NCBI RefSeq assembly: GCF_001458315.1
Contig: NZ_CYRX01000011.1
Coordinates: 186,001-250,000 of the forward strand
Length of the DNA: 64,000 bases
Origin: Thalassobacter stenotrophicus
GTDB taxonomy: Bacteria; Pseudomonadota; Alphaproteobacteria; Rhodobacterales; Rhodobacteraceae
Direction of reading: 5' to 3'
The notes below the pieces were generated by a model. It searched no databases. It saw only the letters and a program-made list of their open reading frames with translations, and had not been told where the DNA came from. Shown piece by piece: positions 16,028 through 38,821 of this stretch. The translations under genes and the position numbers were made by a program. The number at the start of each line of letters is the position of its first letter. Positions within the stretch are counted from its first letter, which is position 1.

Positions 16028-16057
16028 TTCGCCCGCAAGCATCTACAACACGACGAA

Positions 16058-16080
16058 AACCCCCGCCGCTGGCGGGGGTT
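16058..16080 (+). terminator. Terminator hairpin after ilvE
   Basis: Perfect inverted repeat AACCCCCGCC-gct-GGCGGGGGTT with a 10-bp stem and a 3-nt loop, 30 nt after the ilvE stop, followed by TTGCTCGTTT. The T run is broken, so termination efficiency is uncertain. The same GCTCGTT follows the second hairpin 245 nt later, so this hairpin also forms the left part of a duplicated unit. Confidence 0.75.
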
Positions 16081-16115
16081 GCTCGTTTCGGGCCATTTTG
16101 ACCATTTGTTTGATT

Positions 16116-16186
16116 GTAGGTCCCCGACGCAACGTACTGGGTGGGGGCAAGAAATCGTCGCGCCGGGGTGAGCAAATGCTCTCTAC
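16116..16186 (+). ncRNA. Structured RNA element, copy 1 (three-way-junction fold)
   Basis: First of two imperfect direct copies. The predicted fold has an outer stem GTAG (16116-16119) with CTAC (16183-16186). It encloses a long hairpin, in which CCCCGACGC pairs with GCGCCGGGG across one A-C mismatch and whose loop contains GGTGGGGGCAAGAAATC, and a short hairpin GAGC-AAAT-GCTC. The segment downstream runs into a hairpin at 16296-16324. No convincing open reading frame spans it. I do not recognise the class; it could be a small RNA or a ligand-binding leader. The strand is inferred from the flanking genes. Confidence 0.5.
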
Positions 16187-16295
16187 AGGGACATCTATGC
16201 CACCCGACCATGACCGGAGTGCGTAGCCTCAGCGGCAGCCTTGGGGTCATTTCAGGGCGAAACGGCGACATGGTTAACACCCCAAAAACACGAAA

Positions 16296-16324
16296 CCCCT
16301 CGGGCTGTTTTCAGCTCCGAGGGG
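16296..16324 (+). terminator. Terminator-like hairpin between the two RNA copies
   Basis: Stem CCCCTCGG (16296-16303) with CCGAGGGG (16317-16324); GCT and AGC extend the stem around a TTTTC-containing loop. It is followed by CGCTCGTTCCGG, which matches the sequence after the ilvE hairpin. It would end an RNA that starts near copy 1, giving a transcript of roughly 200 nt. The T tract is poor, so this is a likely rather than certain terminator. Confidence 0.55.
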
Positions 16325-16360
16325 CGCTCGTTCCGGCTCTGACTGGCCTGTTATTCTGAC

Positions 16361-16432
16361 GTAGGCCCCGACGCGGCATACTAGGTGGGGGCAAGAAATC
16401 ACCGCGCCGGGGTTCGAGATTGCTCTCGCTAC
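16361..16432 (+). ncRNA. Structured RNA element, copy 2 (upstream of DUF2794 gene)
   Basis: Second copy, offset by about 245 nt, with roughly four in five bases identical to copy 1. The same fold is possible: outer GTAG (16361-16364) with CTAC (16429-16432), a long hairpin CCCCGACGCGG with CCGCGCCGGGG (one A-C mismatch) and a short GAG-ATTG-CTC hairpin. The loop GGTGGGGGCAAGAAATC is unchanged while stem positions differ in a pair-preserving way in at least one place. It lies 124 nt upstream of the DUF2794 start with no hairpin of similar strength in between, so it could act as a 5' leader. Confidence 0.5.
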
Positions 16433-16555
16433 GTAGAGTTTTTATGCAGGACGCCCATGGCAGATTCGCGCTGCCGCGGCGGCTTTGGCAGGGTGATTTT
16501 GAGACGAATTCGTGGCGAGGCTTGCTTTGCACGCTCACCGGGGTACCTTTTGGAT

Positions 16556-38744: not shown

Positions 38745-38821
38745 GGCTCCGTGGCTCAACTGGATAGAGCAGCCCCCTCCTAAGGGGCAGGTTGCAGGTT
38801 CGAATCCTGCCGGGGTCGCCA
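38745..38821 (+). tRNA. tRNA-Arg (anticodon CCU)
   Basis: 77 nt with encoded CCA. Cloverleaf: acceptor GGCTCCG with CGGGGTC (wobbles at 2-71 and 4-69), D arm GCTC...GAGC, anticodon stem GCCCC-CTCCTAA-GGGGC (anticodon CCT), variable AGGTT, T arm GCAGG-TTCGAAT-CCTGC, discriminator G. It decodes AGG. The first 45 nt belong to the island's attachment site and the last 32 nt to the original chromosome. Position 4 is T instead of the C in the left remnant, turning a C-G pair into U-G. Confidence 0.97.

Follow-up and report, generated by a model that had tools for sequence, protein, structure and literature searches.

The CcsR1-4 ('cuckoo') RNAs of Rhodobacter sphaeroides are tandem small RNAs with C-rich loops, and in their tandem arrangement and bacterial family they resemble the RNA described here, while differing from it in their loop motif. 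According to the excerpted text of the source, CcsR1-4 are co-transcribed with ccaF1 (PMC11354728), whereas each copy of the RNA described here is preceded by an array of its own. A further parallel is provided by ChvR of Caulobacter crescentus, an 84-nt RNA with its own promoter which forms stem-loops, is under the control of the ChvI-ChvG system and is activated by ChvI; it acts independently of Hfq, one stem-loop providing a continuous 12-bp pairing with the target, while its gene adjoins recF and it represses a TonB receptor via the chvT mRNA (PMC6237742, in the parts of the paper available). The RNA described here likewise exhibits an upstream array of the GCC-N8-GCC type and a conserved 12-nt loop, yet its neighbours are rsbW/ggt or DUF2794, unlike ChvR with its neighbour recF and its target chvT. 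The likeness to ChvR in control and design appears close by analogy, as a likeness of published descriptions.

Two more RNAs of these bacteria invite comparison. StsR (RSs0827) of R. sphaeroides is described in the available text as a trans-acting small RNA regulated by stress and growth phase and driven by RpoHI/RpoHII; it belongs to the same bacterial family, a likeness by description. The HRC-8-4 motif is a terminator-like stem with conserved tip bases; its 160 examples all come from Rhodobacterales, and the gene directly upstream is normally ccoP (PMC8632094, excerpted text). The motif is similar as far as outlines can be compared, whereas the gene upstream of the RNA described here is rsbW or DUF2794 in 80 of 90 loci, an arrangement at variance with that of HRC-8-4 (ccoP upstream, ccoG downstream). 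DenR, which is antisense to a transporter gene according to the available text, does not fit as an identity. In the excerpts of PMC5107571, PMC4809877, PMC6686037 and PMC3688512 the text gives no sequences for DenR, StsR or the small RNAs of Paracoccus and Ruegeria. The open-access literature searched, as represented by such excerpts, yielded no description of the RNA, although a small RNA already numbered in R. sphaeroides, Paracoccus or Ruegeria may turn out to be a member.

The window, i.e., the whole 64,000-nucleotide stretch of Thalassobacter stenotrophicus DNA that was analysed, contains a tandem repeat of two copies, 244 nt apart and with 82% identity over 62 nt, which agrees with the spacing of about 245 nt given in the initial annotation. 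These are the only two copies in the genome, a third place (E 0.58) not being credible. As that annotation had proposed, both copies can adopt a fold in which an outer stem encloses one long and one short hairpin, stem changes between the copies largely keep the pairing, and the 17-nt loop that it quoted is unchanged, with a single-base difference just beyond it (ACCTAG in the upstream copy on the minus strand, ACCCAG in the other). Its plus-strand reading, and hence its layout, had to be abandoned, since folding is far better on the minus strand (z of -5.18 and -3.22 for the two copies, against -0.95 and -0.53 on the plus strand). On the minus strand each unit is composed of the element, a spacer of about 35 nt, GAACGAGC or AAACGAGC, a GC hairpin and a T-rich run. 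The strong GC hairpin which had been placed ahead of each unit consequently lies behind it as its terminator; with this order, reading the first copy along the plus strand does not lead into a terminator, and the second copy runs away from DUF2794 and not toward it. In full, and read along the minus strand, a repeat array lies upstream, a short 5' hairpin comes next, and a 13-bp hairpin whose loop is GCCCCCACC(C/T)AG is separated by a spacer from the GC-rich terminator; judged by sequence, either unit has the appearance of an entire small-RNA gene. The features are as follows, each copy being listed in its minus-strand order.

16459 to 16516, minus strand: putative promoter-proximal array of copy A, with GCC, GTC, ACC, GCC, AGC and GCC at 11-bp steps (from the sequence and the family-wide phasing).
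16441 to 16446, minus strand: candidate -10-like element of copy A, CATAAA (suggested by weak base preferences in homologues).
16359 to 16434, minus strand: copy A, the upstream copy, from the minus-strand fold; match to covariance model R2 at 16362-16418, 61.8 bits.
16429-16434 with 16359-16364, minus strand: outer stem of copy A (ACGTAG/CTACGT), from the fold.
16415-16428, minus strand: 5' hairpin of copy A, from the fold, as are the long-hairpin stem (16400-16412 with 16366-16378) and its loop (16379-16399).
16381 to 16392, minus strand: 12-nt loop GCCCCCACCTAG of copy A, from the sequence and its conservation over 98 homologues, with one change relative to the family consensus.
16284 to 16327, minus strand: predicted terminator of copy A, a GC-rich hairpin followed by TTTCGTGTTTTT (full-length fold).
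16234 to 16258, minus strand: putative promoter-proximal array of copy B, GCC-N8-ACC-N8-GCC (pattern match and family-wide phasing).
16194 to 16199, minus strand: candidate -10-like element of copy B, CATAGA (suggested on the same basis as that of copy A).
16115 to 16187, minus strand: copy B, the downstream copy, from the minus-strand fold; match to R2 at 16118-16174, 67.4 bits.
16183-16187 with 16115-16119, minus strand: outer stem of copy B (TGTAG/CTACA), from the fold.
16170-16181, minus strand: 5' hairpin of copy B, from the fold, as are the long-hairpin stem (16156-16168 with 16122-16134) and its loop (16135-16155).
16137 to 16148, minus strand: conserved 12-nt loop of copy B, GCCCCCACCCAG, from the sequence and its conservation over 98 homologues.
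16053 to 16083, minus strand: predicted terminator of copy B, a CCCCCGCC/GGCGGGGG hairpin followed by TTTTCG (full-length fold and sequence).

Homologues were sought with covariance models, because a search of 149 family genomes with the exact loop pattern and its flank, which returned only the two copies of the window itself, was too strict owing to variation of the flank. Similarly, when the whole region was compared with 41 genomes by BLASTN, the hits beyond the window itself were limited to short fragments from 11 genomes; some of these fragments represent copies of the RNA (L015 and L018). A loop-like match with at most four mismatches was present in 44 loci, 31 of which were kept by eye, and two loci were dropped before alignment, i.e., L057, which folds unlike the others, and the divergent L020. 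The long hairpin is covered by model R1, for which 10 sequences were used. Alignment A5 admitted only sources with a credible minus-strand R1 match, thus taking up 35 of the 46 matches at E <= 1 and excluding plus-strand mirror images as well as weak matches in L020 and L058, and model R2 was built from 35 sequences. Of note, the match in L057 (about 2819-2908, Alloyangia pacifica) lies upstream of DUF2794 without a proper hairpin and is possibly a decayed copy.

R1 matches were found in 287 of 395 family genomes (73%), with one to three matches in each matched genome, and R2 matches in 130 of 149 genomes of the order (87%), all 149 of which are listed in the same family. In a class-wide sample R2 matched 4 of 289 genomes, all four belonging to the Rhodobacteraceae; one further listed genome of the family was unmatched, and no match was obtained in the remaining 284 class genomes outside the listed family members. 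The covariance-model search of Rhodobacterales genomes that had been suggested as a check therefore returned many covarying homologues. At the gathering score, Rfam 15 has no match over the element, the only match in the window being a tRNA at 38745-38818, and none in 15 homologous loci, in keeping with the earlier description of the RNA as unassigned. Eight low-threshold Rfam matches in the window, all below their gathering scores, were dropped. Although few marine and phototrophic bacteria have been studied as intensively as the Rhodobacteraceae, an RNA matched in 73-87% of the sampled genomes is without an Rfam entry. It is a real, widespread and conserved RNA that is best read as a small-RNA family, the regulator proposed below being a well-founded but unproven guess; it offers those who work on Rhodobacter, Ruegeria or Phaeobacter a definite gene to examine, with its strand, its loop and the motif that precedes it.

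The element has a conserved RNA secondary structure with compensatory changes. In the 35-sequence alignment, changes on both sides were found in 12 of the 13 stem pairs and 97.6% of cells were paired, none of 500 shuffles reaching any of five measures. A second alignment (A6) of 98 copies from 90 further loci gave 12 of 13 pairs covarying, 142 double-change cells and 99.2% of cells paired, with 0 of 500 shuffles as high, although its fitting to R2 makes these pair counts lean toward the modelled structure. The two alignments overlap in a few loci, an identical hairpin sequence being shared by L027 and L106 and by L063 and L126. The three-way junction of the initial annotation holds for the window and for several relatives (Jannaschia, Tropicimonas), whereas Shimia-type homologues are without the outer stem in predicted folds. 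The 5' hairpin recurs in few forms (TAGCG/CGCTA, AGCTG/TAGCT and GAGC/GCTC), and by a simple stem count it is present in 129 of 129 homologues against 109 in shuffles, i.e., little above chance. The loop GCCCCCACCCAG, on the other hand, is nearly invariant, each of its 12 positions being unchanged in 95 to 98 of the 98 copies; copy A of the window carries one change (ACCTAG).

The same alignments identify the strand. With the minus strand modelled, G.U pairs occupy 98 cells of the 98-copy set against three cells with A.C or C.A mismatches, and the corresponding figures for the first set of 35 sequences are 54 and 3; since G.U so greatly outnumbers A.C and C.A, the RNA strand is the minus strand, as minus-strand transcription predicts. 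Furthermore, folding was compared between the two strands of 43 cores sampled from 129, and in 42 of them it favours the forward strand over the complement (mean z of -4.3 against -2.4). Among 80 loci fetched with the DUF2794 gene of the window, the R2 hairpin is present in 31, always on the strand leading away from DUF2794, and three much weaker plus-strand matches proved to be mirror images of the same hairpins. A tandem leader or small RNA on the plus strand before DUF2794, as first supposed, is thus contradicted and scarcely credible: the same outline can indeed be folded on that strand, but the plus-strand folding is ordinary, the mismatch asymmetry runs the other way and every hairpin beside DUF2794 points away from it. 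A plus-strand leader or riboswitch was rejected on these grounds of strand asymmetry, neighbourhood and folding.

Gene neighbourhoods were compared in 90 loci (loci, not genomes), which represent mostly the best-scoring of the listed R1 matches together with two from the class-wide search. In 60 of these, ggt (gamma-glutamyltranspeptidase, PF01019) lies downstream on the same strand at a median distance of 79 nt, and in 59 rsbW and a STAS gene lie upstream. DUF2794 is upstream and divergent in 21 loci, while ilvE is downstream and convergent in three, and also in the window. Both DUF2794 and ggt occur at two loci, at least one of rsbW, ggt and DUF2794 is an immediate neighbour at 88, and two have none of the neighbours sought. 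The arrangement of the window, where DUF2794 and ilvE flank a tandem pair, is accordingly one variant among several. Tandem copies are present at seven of the 90 loci, one of which, L175 (G225:C1:326500-331500), has three copies at 2382, 2578 and 2792, about 200 nt apart and each above 61 bits. The suggestion of a duplicated small RNA is supported by these tandem loci, the widespread covarying homologues and the lack of a matching Rfam family. Neither main neighbourhood is seen at L159 and L178, where transglycosylase-like, lolA-like or map-like genes are nearby as judged by eye. The upstream rsbW/STAS pair resembles the partner-switching pair RbaV-RbaW, which in R. capsulatus affects production of the gene transfer agent (PMC3999984, excerpted text).

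The frequency and closeness of ggt behind the RNA on the same strand raise the question of a cis-acting leader, attenuator or riboswitch of the downstream gene, mostly ggt. Of the gaps that separate the RNA from ggt, 55 (those of 20-200 nt, from 63 rows of the ggt group) were examined, and 30 contain the pattern TTGDNN-N16-18-TANNNT against 0.9 expected from shuffles; the pattern was chosen after visual inspection of some of these very sequences had revealed it, and it is missing from the other 25 gaps. It seems from these sequences that ggt often has its own promoter, and a promoter-like sequence behind the RNA implies that the RNA is not simply a ggt leader. The RNA also stands beside DUF2794 in 21 loci and in the window, and ilvE, where it lies downstream, is convergent. 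A same-strand 5' UTR of one gene class is not what is observed, given that ggt follows on the same strand at only 60 of 90 loci and that the hairpin is opposite to DUF2794 in 31 of 31 cases; a cis-acting role is therefore very unlikely, and a tandem leader or riboswitch before DUF2794, as had been offered as the second option, finds no support in this divergent, opposite-strand arrangement or in the prevalence of ggt. Independence from the neighbouring genes is suggested by the several neighbourhoods and, by comparison, by the array that the RNA has upstream, while a sigma-70 scan of the window finds no promoter.

The array consists of GCC every 11 bp upstream of the RNA in homologues. In 128 upstream stretches, GCC-N8-GCC was counted 89 times, the control stretches giving 16.5 and the shuffles 8.8, and GCC-N19-GCC 100 times, against 12.6 and 8.7, whereas the other 24 spacings tested were at background level; CC at no fewer than four of five 11-bp steps was present in 45% of upstream stretches against 1.4%. 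The controls were random stretches from the same loci and a dinucleotide-block shuffle, and the phasing test was designed once visual inspection of a portion of these sequences had already brought the pattern to attention. One or both spacings are present in 46 of 54 members of the DUF2794 group, 44 of 62 of the ggt group and 9 of 12 others, and the occurrence of the phasing in both neighbourhood groups indicates that the array goes with the RNA rather than with DUF2794. In the window, the pattern of the copy B array has eight matches against 3.4 expected, two of 100 shuffles having as many, which is weak when taken alone. A hairpin related to DNA or to a transposon, or a mere terminator whose loop is conserved by chance, would account for the GC hairpin, the tandem duplication and the several neighbourhoods, but it is highly improbable in view of the phased array and the near-invariant loop, of the one to three matches per matched genome at few recurrent positions, and of the strand asymmetry.

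The 11-bp GCC phasing matches the ChvI motif published for S. meliloti, GCC-N8-GCC, as quoted in the available text of PMC9731502, according to which the Caulobacter ChvI motif has another form, TTGC-N3-GCAA. Judged by this likeness of motif, ChvI-type control of the RNA is somewhat favoured, and other regulators of the OmpR family could use such repeats. It is likely that the ChvGI two-component system is linked to post-transcriptional control in bacteria other than Caulobacter as well.

Taken as a whole, the locus is read as two tandem genes for trans-acting small RNAs on the minus strand, under ChvI-type control and with the loop as the working part, a reading to which we assign a probability of roughly 0.6; that each unit is a minus-strand small-RNA gene is, as judged from sequence comparison, very probable. 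The two genes would be transcribed on the minus strand away from DUF2794 and toward the convergent ilvE, each copy presumably possessing a separate activator array upstream and a terminator of its own. Most likely, a response regulator of the OmpR/PhoB type, for which ChvI is the best candidate, would switch transcription on by binding the GCC half-sites spaced every 11 bp. The 12-nt C-rich loop GCCCCCACCCAG, displayed on a rigid GC stem, would be the working part, and its partner would most likely be a G-rich segment in a single mRNA or a small number of mRNAs. The design would thus be like that of ChvR in Caulobacter, trans-acting and probably controlled by ChvI, and the RNA may have a role in the response to an envelope-stress signal.

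That the loop acts by RNA pairing is probable. Its exact complement over ten bases, GGGTGGGGGC, is commoner than the reversed control in 12 of 12 genomes, a count which includes the RNA's own complement. Among the matches listed, GGGTGGGGGC sites at 110 loci (30 from the search and 80 fetched) were inspected by eye, and 95 of these were checked for homology, the 15 omitted being repeats of fetched regions or the RNA itself; separate labels were given to six of the 95 whose genomes had no listed places. No convincingly recurring gene, and hence no shared target, emerged among the exact GGGTGGGGGC sites examined (12 genomes, 95 loci compared). Two homologous pairs of loci were seen across genomes, L226/L197 with L244 and L220 with L251, neither of which is a convincing start-region target. 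This outcome and the near invariance of a 12-nt stretch over 98 copies would also suit a loop that is bound by a protein, or that serves as a decoy for one, instead of pairing with mRNA. Exposed C-rich loops are, however, a usual design of pairing small RNAs, and no candidate protein is at hand. With the nearest analogue, ChvR, in addition using a continuous 12-bp pairing (PMC6237742, in the parts available), a protein site is considered unlikely, if worth keeping in mind. Beyond the preferred reading of a pairing small RNA, we tentatively propose, as a possibility that is rather doubtful at present, that this core small RNA of the Rhodobacteraceae is the envelope-stress effector of ChvGI in this group, that its loop either pairs at length with one conserved target in the manner of ChvR or is held by a protein dedicated to it, and that a circuit of ChvI and a small RNA has persisted, or has arisen anew, across orders in which the RNA differs.

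At the ends of the transcription units, single-sequence evidence alone is thin, as the consensus scan of the window detects no sigma-70 promoter and a terminator count at chance level (one found against 0.8 expected). The one minus-strand site, 16306-16294, lies inside the terminator of copy A; that of copy B was not picked up by the same scan of the window, and it may double as a terminator for the convergent plus-strand ilvE. The -10-like elements listed above correspond to weak base preferences 9-14 nt ahead of the TAG anchor in 53 homologues. Directly 3' of the hairpin, 129 homologues exhibit a pyrimidine-rich stretch in which T reaches at most 0.53 at any position and forms no clean T-run. 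The Rfam P35 sRNA (RF01677) of Pseudomonas has an end similar to the terminator of copy A, its weak minus-strand match (26.2 bits against a gathering score of 70) covering that terminator only and not the RNA element. In both the window (16295-16337, minus strand) and Jannaschia sp. Os4 (L020), the terminator starts with GAACGAGC followed by the GC hairpin, and the ends of the window RNA, L020 and P35 perhaps share a terminator style.
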